A model generated the notes under the pieces. The model ran no database searches. It was given only the letters and a program-made list of their open reading frames with translations, and had not been told where the DNA came from. Positions 909 to 56,656 of a DNA stretch of 64,000 bases are shown here, piece by piece (positions within the stretch are counted from its first letter, which is position 1; every line of letters starts with the position of its first letter). This DNA is from Desulfosarcina sp. BuS5 (GTDB taxonomy: Bacteria > Desulfobacterota > Desulfobacteria > Desulfobacterales > BuS5): positions 2,647,041 through 2,711,040 of the forward strand of contig NZ_CP087952.1 in NCBI RefSeq assembly GCF_028752835.1, written 5' to 3'. A program made the position numbers and the translations under genes.

Positions 909-1013
909 TATAGAGTTTAATATAAAGATTTTGGGTGCGTTATCGGTCGTCGGAGTATTATAATACGCCTTCCTCCCTCTGGCCTTCCCAAAATCATTAT
1001 CTTAAAATCTATA
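909..1013. repeat. Palindromic repeat A, copy 1 (105 bp)
   Basis: An imperfect inverted repeat with ends TATAGA and TCTATA. The arms TAAAGATTTTGGG and CCCAAAATC pair. Inside them, TGCGTTATCGG faces GGCCTT, and the centre is a GGAGTATTATAATACGCC hairpin. It matches the copies at 13244 and 56269 closely over the core, and both of those are also 105 bp. It sits between two genes of the metal-cofactor cluster. Confidence 0.85.
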
Positions 1014-3452: not shown

Positions 3453-4625
3453 ATGAACAACAATAAATGGGCATCCGAAAGAACCAAACGGATGCCCGCA
3501 AGCATGTTTAGTATAATGGATGCGGCCATTGATGAAGCCCGCCAAAAAAGACTGGAACTTATCGATCTCTCTATTGGATCGAGCGACCTGCCGGCGCCTG
3601 AAGCGGCCATGAAAGTTTTACGCCGGGCAACAAGGCTTTCCGAAACACACGGATACTGTCTCCATGCATGCACACAACCTCTGCGTAATGCGGCAACTGT
3701 TCAGTTAAATAAACGCTACAGCATAAACCTCGATCCTGAAAAAAATATAATTACCCTGATCGGCTCACAGGAAGGTTTTGGACACCTTTTATTTGCCGTG
3801 ACAGATCCTGGAGATCAGGTTTTAGCCCCGGATCCTGGGTACCCTTCTTATTTCGGCGCCACTTCCGTGGCCGGATTGAAACAGGTTGTTATGCCTCTGC
3901 TGGAAGAGAACATGTTTCTTCCGGATCTTACAGCAATTCCGTCTGAAACAGCAGAGAATGCCAGAGCAATGATTATCTCATACCCGAACAATCCCACTGC
4001 TGCAGTAGCTCCTGCCGCTTTTCTGCAGGAAGCTATAGATTTCTGTCTCTCTTACGACATCCTGCTGATTCACGATTTCCCCTATGTTGATATGGTTTAC
4101 GGTGATTACAAAGCGCCGTCGGTTCTTGCACAGCCTGGAGGAATCGATATTGCCGTAGAGTTATATTCATGTAGCAAGAGCTACCACATGGGAGGTTTCA
4201 GGATAGGCTGGGCCGCAGGTAATCAGGATGCTGTGCAAGCGCTGGCAAGGGTTAAGGGAGCTATAGATTTTAATCAGTACTTCGGAATTCAGCAGGCCGC
4301 TATTGCCGCCATAACTCAGCCCCGTGCCGCAACCCTCAAGGCCGCCGCTCTATTCGAAACCCGCCGGAATGTGCTGGTTGACACGCTCAACAAATCCGGC
4401 TGGCAGACATCCCTGCCCCAGGCAAGCATGTACGTCTGGACACGTCTCCCTTCAGGGCTGACCGATTCTTTTGATTTTACAGTAAACCTGGCCAAAGAGA
4501 CCGGAGTCTGTCTGGCCCCTGGAAGAGGGTTCGGAAAAAGGGGCGAAGGCTTTGTCCGATTTGCCCTTGTTCGGGAACCTGATGCCCTGGTGGAGGCTGT
4601 TAAAAAAATTTTTAACTTCCTATAG
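3453..4625 (+). CDS. Class I/II PLP-dependent aminotransferase (LL-diaminopimelate-aminotransferase-like)
   Basis: A 390-residue fold-type I aminotransferase. Visible features are the substrate-side loop IDLSIGSSDLPAP (about 31-43), SYPNNPTA in the cofactor pocket, and the Schiff-base lysine in SCSKSYHMGGFRIGW. The closest remembered groups are DapL and alanine/aspartate-type transaminases; the exact substrate cannot be read from the sequence. An earlier in-frame ATG exists inside the Gly-rich gene but gives an unrelated extension, so the start at 3453 is chosen. The TAG stop is formed by the first bases of a palindromic repeat (copy at 4621). Confidence 0.8.
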   Translation: MNNNKWASERTKRMPASMFSIMDAAIDEARQKRLELIDLSIGSSDLPAPEAAMKVLRRATRLSETHGYCLHACTQPLRNAATVQLNKRYSINLDPEKNIITLIGSQEGFGHLLFAVTDPGDQVLAPDPGYPSYFGATSVAGLKQVVMPLLEENMFLPDLTAIPSETAENARAMIISYPNNPTAAVAPAAFLQEAIDFCLSYDILLIHDFPYVDMVYGDYKAPSVLAQPGGIDIAVELYSCSKSYHMGGFRIGWAAGNQDAVQALARVKGAIDFNQYFGIQQAAIAAITQPRAATLKAAALFETRRNVLVDTLNKSGWQTSLPQASMYVWTRLPSGLTDSFDFTVNLAKETGVCLAPGRGFGKRGEGFVRFALVREPDALVEAVKKIFNFL

Positions 4626-4748
4626 ATTGTCAGATAACAATCTGATTTTAAAATTTGGCACAAGGCCAGAGGGGGTAGGGGTTCAAAATCTTGAACCCCT
4701 ACTCCGACGACCGATAATGCAGTGAAATTATTTATGTGGAAATCTATA
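4621..4748. repeat. Palindromic repeat A, variant with GTAGGGG core (128 bp)
   Basis: It has the same TATAGATTGTCAGATAA end and AAGGCCAG...ACGACCGATAATGCAGTG arms as the 105-bp copies. The centre, however, is the hairpin GTAGGGGTTC...GAACCCCTAC. A second 128-bp copy is at 56455. It overlaps the stop codon of the aminotransferase and ends 12 bp before the prsK start. Confidence 0.85.
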
Positions 4749-4760
4749 TAACTTCCCTTC

Positions 4761-7846: not shown

Positions 7847-7868
7847 TTTGGCGAGGAATGTTTTGCCT

Positions 7869-7990
7869 GGTTCCCATGCTCCAGCGTGGGAATCTCATAT
7901 GGTATGCATTCCCACGCTGGAGCGTGGGAACGAGAAAATGTTGCTTTTCGCCTCGTTCCCAGGCTCTGCCTGGGAATGCATACCACAAGG
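7869..7990. repeat. GTTCCCA...TGGGAAC hairpin repeats
   Basis: Two neighbouring hairpins are built from GTTCCCACGCTCCAGCGTGG-like units (7869-7931 and 7954-7980). They belong to a dispersed hairpin family widespread in environmental bacteria. They fill the gap between the PEP-CTERM promoter region and the end of the AAA_14 gene. Confidence 0.7.
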
Positions 7991-10656: not shown

Positions 10657-10818
10657 TAGGGCTCGCTCAAAAATAACTTTACATTTTAAGCGCCGATGCA
10701 TCCCGCCTGGCTACGTTCCGAAAGCGCAGAAATATCTTGATATTCCTGCGCTTTCGCGCCTTGCCAGCCAGGCGCCTCAACACTTAAAATTGCTAATTTA
10801 TTTTTAAGCGAACCCTTA
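10657..10818. repeat. Palindromic repeat B, copy 1 (162 bp)
   Basis: The ends TAGGGCTCGC and GCGAACCCTTA are inverted. Inner stems are CTGGC/GCCAG with TACGTTC facing CGCCTT, then CGAAAGCGCAG/CTGCGCTTTCG around a central hairpin. The copy at 48057, also 162 bp, is in the opposite orientation. The right end overlaps the 3' end of prsR and supplies its last codons and stop. Confidence 0.85.
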
Positions 10819-13243: not shown

Positions 13244-13348
13244 TATAGACTTTAAGATAAAAATTTTGGGTGCGTTATCGGTGGTCGGAGTATTATAATA
13301 CGCCTTCCTCCCTCTGGCCTTCCCAAAATCTTTATCTTAAAGTCTATT
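13244..13348. repeat. Palindromic repeat A, copy 2 (105 bp)
   Basis: Nearly identical to copy 1. Arms AGACTTTAAGATAAA and TTTATCTTAAAGTCT pair better than in copy 1, then ATTTTGGG/CCCAAAAT, with TGCGTTATCGG facing GGCCTT. It lies between the NupC-like gene and the deacetylase-like gene. Confidence 0.85.
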
Positions 13349-19265: not shown

Positions 19266-20198
19266 ATGACTCTTTTTGAACCGGCTTATATCAAAACCTG
19301 TAACAGCGGATTGCTGAACCAAAAAATAGAAGAGGCTAATGAAGCCTTGCGTAACTGCACCCTCTGCCCCAGGGGATGCGAGGTCGATCGCTACGCTTCT
19401 GAAAAAGGCACTTGCAAAACAGGGGCCAGGGCACGGGTTGTGACATATCTCCCACACTTTGGAGAAGAGCTGCCGTTAAGGGGAACCAAAGGTTCAGGCA
19501 CCATTTTTTTTGCGTCTTGCAGCCTGCTCTGCAATTTTTGTCAGAATTATCATATAACCCATAAAACAGCAGGCAAAGAAGTTTCAGATAATGAGCTGGC
19601 CGAAATGATGATTTCTCTGCAAAACAATGGTTGTCATAATATCAGTTTTGTTACACCGTCCCACGTTGTTCCGCAGATTCTTTCCGCTCTCAAAATTGCC
19701 ATAGCAAAAGGTTTAAAGATACCCCTGGTTTATGATACAAGCGCCTATGACAGCATCAAAGCGCTTAAACTTCTTGAAGATATTATCGATATATATATGC
19801 CGGATTTTAAATTCTGGAATCCGGAAACAGCAAAACTGACATGCAATGCAAAAAATTATCCTGAAGCTGCGCGCAAGGCGATTATTGAAATGCACAGGCA
19901 GGTGGGAGATCTTGTTATCAATGAAGCAGGCCTGGCTGAACGGGGTCTGCTGATCAGGCATCTTGCCCTGCCGAAAGGGCTTGCAGATACACCCAGGATT
20001 ATGAAATTCATCGCAAACGAAATATCTCCCCAAAGTTATGTAAATATAATGCCCCAGTACAGGCCCTGCGGCACATCCTTTAAAATACCTGCGCTTGCAG
20101 TTCACATACGTAAAAAAGAGTTTGAAACAGCCCTTAAGGATGCTGAAGAGGCGGGCATTACCCGTTTGGAGGAGCAGAAATACGATTTTCTGTTATGA
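19266..20198 (+). CDS. Radical SAM protein (PflA/AmmeMemoRadiSam-like)
   Basis: A 310-residue protein. An N-terminal Cys cluster, CTLCPRGCEVDRY with a further Cys in GTCKTG, precedes the radical SAM 4Fe-4S motif CSLLCNFC (C-x3-C-x2-C) at about 80-87. It resembles the uncharacterised PflA-like group of radical SAM enzymes present in anaerobes. It is 9 bp upstream of nadE and probably co-transcribed. The target is unknown. Confidence 0.85.
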   Translation: MTLFEPAYIKTCNSGLLNQKIEEANEALRNCTLCPRGCEVDRYASEKGTCKTGARARVVTYLPHFGEELPLRGTKGSGTIFFASCSLLCNFCQNYHITHKTAGKEVSDNELAEMMISLQNNGCHNISFVTPSHVVPQILSALKIAIAKGLKIPLVYDTSAYDSIKALKLLEDIIDIYMPDFKFWNPETAKLTCNAKNYPEAARKAIIEMHRQVGDLVINEAGLAERGLLIRHLALPKGLADTPRIMKFIANEISPQSYVNIMPQYRPCGTSFKIPALAVHIRKKEFETALKDAEEAGITRLEEQKYDFLL

Positions 20199-35540: not shown

Positions 35541-35605
35541 TAAGTAAGTATTGCATGCCTTCGTGGAAAAAAGGCAAAGCAAATAAGATCTATCAGGATA
35601 AAAAG

Positions 35606-35695: not shown

Positions 35696-37699
35696 ATGAA
35701 AAAAAAGTATTTTATATTTTTAATTTGTATGGTTATGCTGCTCCCTGGTTTAACCCAGGCAAAAGATGAAGAGCCGGTATCAACTTTAGACGAAATGGTG
35801 GTTACAGCCAGCCGGGTTCCGGAAAAGAAAAAGGATCTTACCACAAATGTAACTATTATTGATGAAAATGATATTAAACTTTCCGCAGCAAAAGATTTAG
35901 GCGATCTGTTGTCCGAAAAAGCCGGGGTATATATTAGAAAATATCCAGGTAATATGACTAGTATTGGTTTACGTGGTTTCAGAACTGAAACTCACGGTAA
36001 CGACCTGAAAGGTAATGTGTTAATATTGCTAAACGGCCGCAGGGCAGGCACTGGCAATGCTGCCAAAATTATGACAAAAAATATCGAAAGAGTCGAAATA
36101 ATACGTGGTCCGGCCGCCGTTCAATACGGTTCGGCAGCCATGGGCGGCCTTGTAAATGTTATTACTAAGCAGGGTAAGGATAAACCCACTTTTTTTGCTG
36201 AAGGATTGTTGGGAAGTTATGGATATGAAGAGGGAAGCGCCGGTTTTTCAGGAAAAATAGAAAATTTTGATTTTTCAGGCAGCTTCACCAGAACAACCAA
36301 AGATGATTATGATATTAGCGATGGAGATAAATATGATAATACCGGTTATGATGAAAAAACAAATTGCAGTTTAAATCTCGGATATGAGTTTTTGCCCGGC
36401 AACCGTATTGGAATGATATACACTTCATTTGATGCGGATAAAACAGGTTCTCCATATTATTTTATAAATCCTGACCCTGATAATTATGCAGATAATGTGA
36501 ATAAATCTATTGATTTTATTTATGATGGCACAACTGCAGATGAACTTTTTTCATGGAAAGCCAGATATTTTAATGGAGAAGACGATTATAAATATACATA
36601 TGTAGATCCTCTTTATCCATCTATTTCCAACAATAATTATGACCAGGAAGGTGCTCAAGGGCAAGTTACTTTAGATTTAGAAAATTTTTCTACAACAATA
36701 GGTGTTGATTGGCTAAATTATGACTATAAAAATAGTGACACCAATAGTTTTAATGTAGCTCTTAAGTCTAATTACGAAAATACTGCCGGTTTTATGCTGG
36801 CCAAACTTAAGTTGTTTGATAAAAAATTAATTATTTCAGGTGGGCTAAGATATGATGAATATGATCTTGAGTTTAAACAAACTGATAAAAACGATGATAA
36901 TGATGATAATTGGACACCAAGCATTGGATTAGCATATCTGGTTAATGATTGTTTAAAAATCAGAGCAAATTATGCTGAAGCCTTTGTTATGCCTGCTGCC
37001 AATGAAATGGCAGGAAAGTATACTTACTGGTATGGTAGTTATATCGGCAACCCGGATCTTGATCCTGAAAAAAGCAAAACCTATGAAGCTGGTTTTGACT
37101 TTTCTTATAGCAGTTTTAATTTATCTATAACTTATTTCTATACTGATTTCAAAGATAAAATTGAGGAAGCTTATATTCCTGGAGATCCTGATTTTACCAA
37201 ATCATTTTATAATATAAATGATGCCACTATTTCGGGATTTGAAGGCGAATTTTCTTTTAACTTAGGAACATTCTTTGATTTAAATTTAGAATTAAAACCA
37301 TATTGTAATATTACTTACCTTGATGAATATGAATCTGACGACGCTCCTGCCGGAGAAACTCATAAAGAGCTTAAATATACATCTGATATTACAGCCTCAT
37401 ATGGTATACTTTTTAACGATTTAAACGGATTATCAGCTAATTTAAATTTTTCATATACAGGCAAGCAGAATATTGATGATCGTGTGTATGGATCATGGCC
37501 ATCATACCCGATAATTGAAAAGGGTGGATTTACTGTTGCCAATATTACAATAAGTAAAAAAATCTATGATTTTTCCCAGTACGGCAAACTTACCTTAAAA
37601 GGAGAGATAGAAAATCTCTTCGACAAAGACTACGCTTATGTCCAGGGGTATCCGATGCCCGGCAGAAGCTTTTATATCGGTTTAAGATACGATTATTAA
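35696..37699 (+). CDS. btuB: TonB-dependent corrinoid receptor (BtuB-like)
   Basis: About 667 residues. A signal peptide (MKKKYFIFLICMVMLLPGLTQA) is followed by a TonB box (DEMVVTASRVPE), the plug (LRGFRTETHG, VEIIRGPAAVQYGSAAMGG) and a 22-strand barrel. The barrel ends in an aromatic residue (GRSFYIGLRYDY). The reading frame extends further upstream over the terminator, but AAGGAG before the ATG at 35696 fixes the start. The cobalamin riboswitch upstream makes a corrinoid the likely ligand. Confidence 0.9.
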   Translation: MKKKYFIFLICMVMLLPGLTQAKDEEPVSTLDEMVVTASRVPEKKKDLTTNVTIIDENDIKLSAAKDLGDLLSEKAGVYIRKYPGNMTSIGLRGFRTETHGNDLKGNVLILLNGRRAGTGNAAKIMTKNIERVEIIRGPAAVQYGSAAMGGLVNVITKQGKDKPTFFAEGLLGSYGYEEGSAGFSGKIENFDFSGSFTRTTKDDYDISDGDKYDNTGYDEKTNCSLNLGYEFLPGNRIGMIYTSFDADKTGSPYYFINPDPDNYADNVNKSIDFIYDGTTADELFSWKARYFNGEDDYKYTYVDPLYPSISNNNYDQEGAQGQVTLDLENFSTTIGVDWLNYDYKNSDTNSFNVALKSNYENTAGFMLAKLKLFDKKLIISGGLRYDEYDLEFKQTDKNDDNDDNWTPSIGLAYLVNDCLKIRANYAEAFVMPAANEMAGKYTYWYGSYIGNPDLDPEKSKTYEAGFDFSYSSFNLSITYFYTDFKDKIEEAYIPGDPDFTKSFYNINDATISGFEGEFSFNLGTFFDLNLELKPYCNITYLDEYESDDAPAGETHKELKYTSDITASYGILFNDLNGLSANLNFSYTGKQNIDDRVYGSWPSYPIIEKGGFTVANITISKKIYDFSQYGKLTLKGEIENLFDKDYAYVQGYPMPGRSFYIGLRYDY

Positions 37700-42420: not shown

Positions 42421-42514
42421 ACTTTTGGTATAACGACTTAATATTTTGGTGATACGGTTACAGTTTGCATGTCAAAGTCTCCATCGATATTGTTTCGTAA
42501 TACAATAATATGAT

Positions 42515-42551
42515 CGATAACGCAGTGAAATTATTTATATGACAATCTATA
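42515..42551. repeat. Half of palindromic repeat A
   Basis: GATAACGCAGTGAAATTATT followed by TATATGACAATCTATA equals the right arm of repeat A (as in 4621 and 56269). The other half is missing; the preceding 90 bp show no recognised feature. Confidence 0.7.
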
Positions 42552-48056: not shown

Positions 48057-48218
48057 TAAGGGTTCGCACAAAAATAAGTTAGCAATTTTAAGTGTTAAGG
48101 CGCCTGGCTGGCAAGGCGCGAAAGTGTATGAATATCAAGATATTTCTACGCTTTCGTAACGCAGCCAGGCAGGATGCATCGACGCTTAAAATGTAAAATT
48201 ATTTTTGCGCGAGCCCTA
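48057..48218. repeat. Palindromic repeat B, copy 2 (162 bp, inverted)
   Basis: Ends TAAGGGTTCGC and GCGAGCCCTA. It is the reverse complement arrangement of copy 1 at 10657, with the same length and the CTGGC/GCCAG, TGCGTTA/CGCCTT and CGAAAGCGTAG pairs. It lies between the OprC-like receptor start and a palindromic operator. Confidence 0.85.
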
Positions 48219-54804: not shown

Positions 54805-54950
54805 AAATTAAATAACTTGAACAATATTATTTGTCTTTTAGCCCATCTGCTGTGTTGCATTAAAGGCCGAATACTTCGAGTATTCAACCTTTAATGCGCC
54901 TTGCAGATGAACCAAAATCCTTCATAATCTTTGTCCAATTTATTTAATCT
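54805..54950. repeat. Palindromic repeat D (146 bp)
   Basis: The outer arms AAATTAAATAA and TTATTTAATCT are inverted. Inner stems are CATCTGC/GCAGATG with TGTGTT facing GCCTT, then GCATTAAAGG/CCTTTAATGC and GAATACT/AGTATTC. It occupies the gap between the DCCP-like gene and its activator gene and includes the DCCP stop codon. Confidence 0.8.
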
Positions 54951-56230
54951 CCGATCCTTATTAATTCAATAAACGCTTCCACCCTTGTTTTAAGCTGCCC
55001 TATGTCTTCCATGCTGTAATCCGTATCGATACGAAGTACAGGGATATTTTTTTCTTCAAGGGCCTTTTCCGTGGGCATGGATTCCATGAGATAGGGCTGA
55101 CAAAACTGTAAACCATAAAGAATCACCCCGTCTGGCTTATAGTCTCCGACCATTTCAACTATATGGTCAAGACGATCGGGATTTGGCGTAAAAATGGCGC
55201 AATCTACTTTGAAATAGCGGTCAATAACAGCTTCCATGAGTTCTTCCACTGTGCTGCCTGTATTATCTGTCAAATTGCGGGTTCCTCTTTCTCCTACGCA
55301 GGATTCCTCACCAACAATTACTCCACCGGATGTTTCAATTATCCACGGAAGCTTCCAGTTTGGAACAGCCATTGGGCAGCCCGATATCAGGATGCGCTGC
55401 GTTTTTTCAGGGAATACGCCTTCCCTGTTTTGTATGCGCTTTTCAAGCTCATCGCATATACTGTTTACTGATTCAGTAAAACGGACCGGGTTATCATAGA
55501 AAAAAACCTGATTGGCCAAAAGGGCGTCAAGGCCGGAAACAGGAGCAGGAACAGCCTTGCGCAAAGCCGACAATCTGTGAATGGCCTTTCGTTTATTATT
55601 AACGATTTCAATTCCCTTTAAAAGCCTTTCGCTATCAATTTTTATACCTGCAAGTTCTTCAACAGCATCTTTAAAACGCCAATATTCGGTTTTCAGAAGA
55701 TTTCTTCCTTCAGTCGATTTAACCTGTGGTAAATCCATTACATAGAGGTTGGAAACAAGATTATTTAAGGTCTCATAGGCTTTTTTTTTGCCGTCGCAGG
55801 TGTTTTCTCCTACAATCATATCTGCTAATTCCAGATAGGGACAGACTTTCCCCAGCTTGAATCCAAAAGCCGATTTAATCAGGGCACAAGTATTTCGCGG
55901 AAGATAATTCTCCACTTCCTCCATAGCAAAATCCGCTCCGGAGCAAAGTCCCACAAGGGTTGCATCTGCTGCCAGCACGATCTCCTCCGGCACAAAAACA
56001 CAGAAGGAGCCGATCACTTTTCTGCCGGCTGCTTTTTCATCCATAAGTTCCTTGATTCGCAGGCCGTGCACTTCACTCATAACAAAATCAAAATACCCCA
56101 TGCCTTGGGGCCGGTTTTTCTGAGCACTATAAATATCCCGGTATCCTTTTCCAAGAATATCCAGCAACTCATCATGCGCTGCAAGATCCAGTTCCAGGCT
56201 TTCCCACATTTTTTTATAATCTTCGCTCAT
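54944..56230 (-). CDS. Double-cubane-cluster protein (HgdB/BcrC family, YjiM-like)
   Basis: About 428 residues. The start MSEDYKKMWESLELDLAAHD is preceded by AAAAGGAAAA. Family blocks include GYFDFVMSEVHGLRIKEL, SFCVFVPEEIVLAADATLVG, LPRNTCALIKSAFGFKLGKV, MIVGENTCDGKKKAYE, and FYDNPVRFTESV. Several conserved Cys would hold the [8Fe-9S] double cubane described for DCCP. With the activator it forms an ATP-driven low-potential reductase; the natural substrate is unknown. The absence of a second dehydratase subunit gene favours DCCP over a hydroxyacyl-CoA dehydratase. Confidence 0.85.
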   Translation of the reverse strand: MSEDYKKMWESLELDLAAHDELLDILGKGYRDIYSAQKNRPQGMGYFDFVMSEVHGLRIKELMDEKAAGRKVIGSFCVFVPEEIVLAADATLVGLCSGADFAMEEVENYLPRNTCALIKSAFGFKLGKVCPYLELADMIVGENTCDGKKKAYETLNNLVSNLYVMDLPQVKSTEGRNLLKTEYWRFKDAVEELAGIKIDSERLLKGIEIVNNKRKAIHRLSALRKAVPAPVSGLDALLANQVFFYDNPVRFTESVNSICDELEKRIQNREGVFPEKTQRILISGCPMAVPNWKLPWIIETSGGVIVGEESCVGERGTRNLTDNTGSTVEELMEAVIDRYFKVDCAIFTPNPDRLDHIVEMVGDYKPDGVILYGLQFCQPYLMESMPTEKALEEKNIPVLRIDTDYSMEDIGQLKTRVEAFIELIRIGD

Positions 56231-56268
56231 TTTTTTTCCTTTTGTGGATTTGTAATTTTTCAGGTGTT

Positions 56269-56373
56269 TATAGATTGTCACATAAATAATTTCACTGCGT
56301 TATCGGTCGTTGGAGTATTACAATACGCCTTCCTCCCTCTGGCCTTGTGAAATTTATTATCTGACAATCTATA
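56269..56373. repeat. Palindromic repeat A, copy 4 (105 bp)
   Basis: TATAGATTGTCACATAA pairs with TTATCTGACAATCTATA. TTTCAC/GTGAAA stems flank TGCGTTATCGG and GGCCTT, and the centre GGAGTATTACAATACGCC matches copies 1 and 2. It stands just upstream of the DCCP-like gene. Confidence 0.85.
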
Positions 56374-56418
56374 GGTAAAATACTGAAGGGAAGAACAACC
56401 ATTTTTGACAGAAAATCA

Positions 56419-56454
56419 GGCATCCTTCATTTTGTAGTTTACACTTTTTCAATA
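56419..56454. mobile_element. Half of MITE-like element C
   Basis: GGCATCCTTCAT followed by TAGTTTACACTTTTT equals the left end of element C. The right half has been replaced by the repeat A copy starting at 56455. Confidence 0.6.
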
Positions 56455-56582
56455 TATAGATTGTCAGATAATTACCCGATTTTAAAATTTGGTACAAGGC
56501 CAGGGGGGGGTAGGGGTCAAAATCCTGAACCCCTACTCCGACGACAGACAACGCATTGAAATTGTTTGTGTGACAATCTATA
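56455..56582. repeat. Palindromic repeat A, copy 5 with GTAGGGG core (128 bp)
   Basis: Same length and layout as the 4621 copy: TATAGATTGTCAGATAA end, AAGGCCAG arm, GTAGGGGTCAAAATCCTGAA with CCCCTAC core, and TGACAATCTATA end. Confidence 0.85.
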
Positions 56583-56656
56583 TCTGAATAGCTAAATAAA
56601 CTTTCTTTTTATATAGGATATTTTTTAATGTCAAACAGGAAATTACAATAATAAAA

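Follow-up and report, generated by a model that had tools for sequence, protein, structure and literature searches.

The window analysed here is a stretch of 64,000 nt from Desulfosarcina sp. BuS5, and it carries a set of palindromic repeats, assigned to families A, B and D, in which stems of differing sequence enclose one asymmetric internal loop. The family D element (54805..54951, ends approximate, plus strand) has its loop module at 54841-54912, where the parts follow in the order CATCTGC-TGTGTT-GCATTAAAGG...CCTTTAATGC-GCCTT-GCAGATG. Near it lies a family A element (56269..56372, plus strand) that runs from TAGATTGTCA to TGACAATCTA with TA on both flanks and has a module at 56286-56356 reading TTTCAC-TGCGTT...GCCTT-GTGAAA. 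Two more plus-strand elements of family A are found at 909..1012 (module 926-996, GATTTTGGG-TGCGTT...GCCTT-CCCAAAATC) and at 13244..13347 (module 13261-13331, flanks TA and TT). Family B is represented at 10658..10816 on the plus strand, with ends GGGCTCGCTCAAAAATAA and TTATTTTTAAGCGAACCC and a module at 10702-10772 (CTGGC-TACGTT...GCCTT-GCCAG), and at 48059..48217 on the minus strand (module 48103-48173, minus). Two family A copies are reversed, on the minus strand: the one at 4621..4749 retains TGCATT/GCCTT with an outer stem down to CAC/GTG, and the one at 56455..56583 retains the loop letters TGCGTT/GCCTT but has lost its outer stem and has a long apical hairpin. A single family A end (GATAACGCAGTGAAATTATTTATATGACAATCTATA) is present at 42512..42551 on the minus strand, the remainder of that element not being recognised.

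The loop is best written as outer stem - T[G/A][C/T]GTT - inner stem - GCCTT - outer stem, and this register is intact in six of the eight named copies. A covariance model of the loop module, R1, matches six named window elements with E between 2e-11 and 9e-8: those of family A at 909 (46.1 bits), 13244 (44.7 bits) and 56269 (41.3 bits), those of family B at 10658 (47.9 bits) and 48059 (55.2 bits), and that of family D (51.0 bits). As the modules at 13261, 48103 and 54841 are rows of R1's alignment, their matches arise partly by construction. With filters off, the copy at 4621 scores 11.4 bits (E = 0.87), and the copy at 56455 does not appear at E <= 10. A preliminary description of this DNA had proposed that the loop is shared between differing outer stems which always pair; the shared loop stands, in full register in six of eight copies and beyond chance, whereas the pairing of the outer stems is reduced at 4621 and lost at 56455.

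We scanned the window for the loop letters accompanied by pairing stems on either side and found nine places on the plus strand (one element counted twice) and two on the minus strand, against a mean of 1.65 places per strand in 20 two-mer shuffles. The scan recovers 909, 13244 and 56269 (family A), 10657 and 48057 (family B, the latter on the minus strand) and 54805 (family D); the places at 35993, 44592, 56249 and 56854 look like chance. When the loop motifs are permuted and strict pairing is required, the real pair is found twice in 459 kb of the organism's own genome, where 1,799 permuted pairs average 0.003; in a further 835 kb, from distant DNA after masking of known matches, the real pair is not found and the permuted pairs average 0.009. 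The common loop is real and beyond chance.

The alignment behind R1, which we refer to as A1, has 50 rows. It derives from 179 places filtered for pairing, reduced to 60 by removal of similar sequences, of which 12 were dropped as long-cored or chance-like; the module at 54840-54912 and one element of a further family, H, were added. The covariation score of A1 is 0.634, compared with 0.149 in shuffled and at most 0.143 in slid alignments, and double-sided pair changes across the 50 families occupy 276 cells, against 99 in shuffles. These values need to be read with caution, as the rows were pre-filtered for pairing and the covariation is therefore inflated. At 112 places selected by the loop, with no pairing filter, the outer arms form 12.5 Watson-Crick pairs out of 20, against 7.5 (standard deviation 1.7) for swapped arms; 60 of these places lie above the 99th percentile of the swapped-arm control, and in 92 the core measures 38-42 nt, though 26-56 nt was permitted. 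The filtered and the unfiltered comparison both bear out the earlier proposal of a conserved loop with covarying stems. Neither of the two outcomes that would have spoken against that proposal, a loop no commoner than chance and extra copies that lose the loop pair, came true.

Over the 4.18-Mb genome, R1 finds at least 126 copies at E <= 0.1 (150 of 424 candidates scored), in families with differing stems. In 465 kb comprising the window, an even sample of the genome (20 stretches of 20 kb each, regularly spaced) and one E. coli locus, it finds 20 elements at E < 1e-5, of which seven are rows of its own alignment and match partly by construction. A survey of the window and the even sample that was blind to the loop returned 66 nested palindromes, compared with 17 in one shuffle, and brought to light family G (outer CGTCTTC, TACGTT, GCCTT, GAAGACG) and family H (AATAGC-TGCGTT...GCCTT-GCTCTT). 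Palindromes lacking the loop also turned up, so that the loop is the mark of one class among the hairpins. A stricter, seeded survey outside the known matches found at least 11 palindromes in the organism's own DNA and at least 20 in distant DNA, both lower bounds since the survey missed family B and most family A copies; by eye, two of the 20 distant palindromes (L149 and L215) resemble loop variants. Among 44 family A copies in the DNA fetched from this genome, the right-hand CCTT never varies, and conservation of the left loop, at 91-98%, is barely above that of the remainder of the element.

The palindromes are several families resembling miniature inverted-repeat transposable elements (MITEs), about 100-175 bp long and palindromic over their full length, with target duplications, terminal inverted repeats and a length below 500 bp. 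Family B elements measure 157-159 bp with ends GGGYTCGC..AAAAATAA, and an identical TWA direct repeat stands on both flanks in 25 of 26 distinct B-type copies, namely all 12 of this genome and 13 of the 14 from relatives; both TAA and TTA are seen in loop orientation, and the triplet thus belongs to the target. In family A, 18 of 20 copies are flanked by TA at each end. These duplications confirm the mobility that the preliminary description had suspected. One family A element has inserted into the apical loop of a palindrome of family G (L059, about 19440-19600), and another G copy (L078, 12390-12521) provides the empty site of that insertion. Apical hairpins have been exchanged between family A copies, and one A copy (L014/L280, near G000:C1:124.1-124.2 kb) has turned symmetrical, AAGGCCAG...CTGGCCTT, with its asymmetric loop erased, which suggests that hairpin template switching shapes the stems.

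Because the ends differ between families, different transposases are likely to be involved. A search for IS5-like or IS630-like mobilisers found no DDE_Tnp_4 match in eight genomes and no DDE_3 match in G000. The commonest DDE_Tnp_1 insertion sequence (IS) of G000 has ends (CAGTAGTGTCCGG) that differ from those of the elements, and two family A end pairs about 2 kb apart have ordinary genes and no transposase between them. Searching plasmids with two whole elements gave partial or chance-level matches at most. An abundant IS of G000 encodes a DDE_Tnp_1 transposase of 390 aa in 39 equal-scoring copies (e.g. L385-L400), with ends CAGTAGTGTCCGGTTAAG; the 9-bp flanks of the DDE_Tnp_1 IS match in 12 of the 16 copies read.

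The loop extends well beyond this genome. A looser form of the pattern occurs in 31 of 40 related genomes, several of which have one to three matches that are not necessarily real; two relatives stand out, with 45 matches against two in the backward control and 30 against none, and each has its own inner stem. Across the phylum, 20 of 297 genomes contain a stricter pattern, with 53 matches in all (some of which look like chance) against one in the backward control, and at least 118 stretches with the loop pattern turned up when each species was scanned through a single genome. Among the matches listed, Massilia, Janthinobacterium, Acidovorax, Nitrosomonas, Pseudomonas and Shewanella contribute palindromic cases, Pseudomonadota isolates among them, as do bins labelled Desulfobacterales or Desulfobacterota, Acidobacteria, Planctomycetota and others; some matches, such as L113, L120 and L159, look like chance. 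This breadth describes finds among listed matches and is not a frequency, and many of the finds outside Pseudomonadota come from metagenome bins, which may be mislabelled. With R1, at least 50 copies were found in Janthinobacterium sp. LM6, at least 66 in the genome of L169, at least 24 in Massilia sp. IC2-477 and at least three in P. fluorescens PfAR1, all lower bounds since at most 150 candidates were scored per genome. Many of the distant families measure about 160-175 bp end to end. Two Pseudomonas loci (L193 and L222) carry two modules in opposite orientation, with ends like AAACTAATTGAGAACGCCCC and a linker of the CCCTTCGGGTTG type. Families from different organisms (L112, L134, L138, L160, L189 and L206), together with family B of the window, have by eye an additional, similar mismatch block outside the loop, with about CGATNCATCC on the left opposite about GGCGCCTCG on the right.

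The closest known element, and probably a member of this class, is the enterobacterial repetitive intergenic consensus (ERIC), which the preliminary description did not mention and whose repeats have long been used for typing. In the form given in Table 1a of PMC2759123, Wilson and Sharp's consensus for E. coli has the module in the same register, GCTGCAGC-TGCGTT-GGC...GCC-GCCTT-GCTGCAAC: TGCGTT faces GCCTT, with GCTGCAGC and GCTGCAAC forming the outer stem and GGC and GCC the inner one. R1, which was built without ERIC, aligned in register five of 18 ERIC loci (17 from Intestinirhabdus alba and one from E. coli), with 19-23 bits and E from 6e-4 to 8e-3 in 54 kb. Given a consensus in register but weak R1 scores, we call ERIC the closest known element and not a proven homologue. 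ERIC, also known as the intergenic repeat unit (IRU, or RU-1), is likewise a palindromic MITE with a TA target duplication according to PMC2759123 and PMC2229807, and its exact-loop copies have the strand asymmetry described below; it differs in its TATACC.. ends and in being reported from Enterobacteriaceae and Vibrionaceae. Of 5,426 E. coli genomes, 5,376 contain an ERIC match. The ends and stems of families A, B, D, G and H are other than those of ERIC (127 bp, TATACCCGTCAT.. ends), which makes these families relatives or analogues of ERIC and not copies of it. No ERIC transposase is named in the passages of PMC2229807 and PMC10969869 consulted, and the latter, a review, reports a message-level effect of ERIC by way of an RNase E site.

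Other known elements are less close. Bacterial MITEs in general are also short, with terminal inverted repeats, a target duplication and stable hairpin transcripts (PMC10969869), but here families with different ends and duplications have one inner loop in common. YPAL/RU-2 of Yersinia is similar as a mobile repeat of about 168 bp with hairpin structure; however, its sequence in Table 1b of PMC2759123 shows by eye no TGCGTT opposite GCCTT. At gathering score, Rfam places no family on the module in the window, and at 20 loci with a loop-pattern match it gives just P24 and RsmZ, elsewhere in those loci. A word search of the open-access literature returned no paper linking ERIC to elements of this kind beyond the Gammaproteobacteria, nor any report of the strand asymmetry. 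MITEs, ERIC and the conserved hairpin are each known; what appears to be new is the linking of ERIC by one loop to sequence-unrelated MITE families across phyla, together with the strand asymmetry.

We assessed this asymmetry on 48 distinct elements, drawn from 249 places by requiring that the arms pair and that similarity not exceed 0.70. Read on the TGCGTT strand, the arm mismatches comprise 105 A.C against 25 G.T and 112 T.C against 12 A.G; A.C exceeds G.T in 34 elements and the reverse holds in two, with 12 ties (p = 2e-8). The complementary strand accordingly carries G.T (or G.U) wobbles and G.A mismatches. In a redundant set of 136 places the ratio of G.T to A.C is 0.20, compared with 0.81 expected from composition. 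The nine ERIC copies that keep the exact loop among 31 loci agree (14 A.C and three G.T; eight copies against none, with one tie). We found that the AAGGC strand folds better at 86 of 108 distant loop-selected places, at 31 of 39 places from relatives, at 41 of 45 from this genome (a set with many near-identical copies) and in all nine exact-loop ERIC copies, whereas background windows show no strand preference (102 of 216). In five window copies that were folded, the AAGGC strand is more stable every time, as at 54836-54918 (-45.1 against -32.0 kcal/mol). The mismatch asymmetry indicates the complementary strand, 5'-GC-AAGGC-GC...GC-AACGCA-GC-3', as the one kept foldable, and it seems that the folded form of one strand has been selected, probably as RNA and possibly as single-stranded DNA.

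We lean, by a modest degree, towards the view that the elements form one structural class of MITEs, probably including ERIC/IRU, whose loop is kept foldable on one strand and most likely acts as an RNA hairpin. Under such a model, a cut-and-paste transposase acting in trans would move each family and would account for the short target duplications observed (TA for A, TWA for B). Terminal repeats and stems change freely between families, but the TGCGTT/GCCTT loop stays fixed, as does the spacing of some 40 nt between its two sides over the inner hairpin. The AAGGC/AACGCA strand would act single-stranded, most likely as a hairpin in transcripts reading through the element, and a conserved RNA-binding protein or ribonuclease may recognise the loop. 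Recognition would then allow the element to be tolerated in a host message, or to regulate it, as reported for ERIC.

Several observations weigh against this interpretation. The sense strand is inconsistent, which speaks against a role in read-through transcripts: by a crude call of open reading frames (ORFs), top-sense and bottom-sense elements number 12 and 19 in this genome, 22 and eight in distant DNA, and three and eight in relatives, giving 37 and 35 in sum with leanings that oppose each other. DNA energy parameters yield a strand preference of the same sign as RNA parameters, so that folding does not separate RNA from single-stranded DNA, and a strand-specific mutation bias could produce part of the A.C excess. 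On the side of ERIC, R1 did not align the remaining 13 of the 18 loci, the E. coli locus included, another E. coli copy scores only 10.7 bits, and the core spans 62 nt, compared with about 40 nt in the elements described here. Of five covariation measures on A1, one, the number of further pair types, is unexceptional (51 of 500 shuffles reach its value). Finally, the families may be related by common descent or may have converged on one loop.

The preliminary description had called the elements REPIN-like and tied them to Y1 transposases of the host, that is, to repetitive extragenic palindromic (REP) sequences and their hairpin-forming arrangements (REPINs) served by REP-associated tyrosine transposases (RAYTs). 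There is some resemblance, as both are repeated extragenic hairpins whose stems differ between families, and the genome has 32 Y1 matches. REPs are, however, 20-40 bp long with an unpaired GTAG or CGTC at one end (PMC3733652), whereas the elements here are 100-175 bp long, have target duplications, and show no unpaired GTAG or CGTC tag at the ends read (families A, B and relatives). We took up 22 of the 32 Y1 matches, 20 with usable flanks; the inverted repeats in these flanks are of other types (such as GGGACGTC or GGGGACAC) or weak, and none of the 20 has a Y1/RAYT gene flanked by the same repeat as the elements. In the neighbourhoods of Y1 genes, 212.6 kb in all, R1 detects six elements (E < 1e-6), of which the closest is about 2 kb away from a Y1 match; this density is not above that of the even sample (20 in 465 kb). 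The flanks and the R1 searches of the Y1 neighbourhoods thus led us to reject the REPIN/RAYT link, and we consider it very improbable. A second possibility, which we rate as clearly less likely than an RNA hairpin although not negligible, is that one strand extrudes a hairpin during replication or transposition and that a transposase or host factor recognises its asymmetric loop as single-stranded DNA, perhaps in the manner of TnpA of IS200/IS605 or of RAYTs. It would account for strand specificity in the absence of a consistent sense orientation, and for the agreement of the DNA energy model. However, the target duplications seen in 25 of 26 B-type copies and 18 of 20 family A copies point to double-strand cut-and-paste and not to Y1 chemistry, the elements are not concentrated at Y1 genes, and no clear chromosomal orientation bias was found in 71 hand-listed copies (44 plus, 27 minus), in a genome whose GC skew is too weak to define replichores.

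The elements may also be the neutral remains of one ancestral MITE, with arms kept complementary by template switching, a loop that is simply an inherited remnant, and an asymmetry of mutational origin. Template switching does appear to occur, given the symmetrised copy and the swapped apical hairpins of family A, and the slight lead of the loop in conservation among the 44 A copies would fit such a history. Yet template switching would erase an asymmetric loop, and this one persists across phyla in families that have no common stem sequence; its persistence therefore speaks for selection on the loop. Moreover, the T.C asymmetry (112 against 12 A.G) is not produced by cytosine deamination. We therefore judge a purely neutral origin improbable, and retain the selected, one-strand hairpin as the preferred reading.

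On a wider scale, we tentatively suggest, with rather less than even confidence, that ERIC, far from being peculiar to enterobacteria, belongs as one branch to a structured miniature transposon superfamily in at least four bacterial phyla, in which ends and stems turn over with the transposase while the loop of one strand is kept by an ancient putative factor that binds RNA or single-stranded DNA. If a conserved factor does bind the loop, a host-transposon interaction would have been preserved across phyla. The covariance model makes scattered intergenic repeats one searchable class, and the module offers concrete handles: a short RNA or DNA hairpin as bait, and one strand for probing.

Some further features were observed. 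Within 45 kb of G000 (G000:C1:3849532-3894064, L039-L041) there are 13 matches to Y1 (HUH) transposases, 12 of which form one family, about 334-338 aa at full length and with several broken; the copies with flanks read have GGGACGTC-type inverted repeats, like the 'TIRYT' genes of PMC3733652. Within the window, a palindromic repeat at 7850-7961 has CTGGAGCGTGGGAACGAG and lacks the TGCGTT/GCCTT loop. We take this type of repeat to be widespread in bacteria. The sole Rfam match in the window is a cobalamin riboswitch (RF00174, 35365-35553, 116 bits), which lies just upstream of an ORF of 714 aa at 35555.

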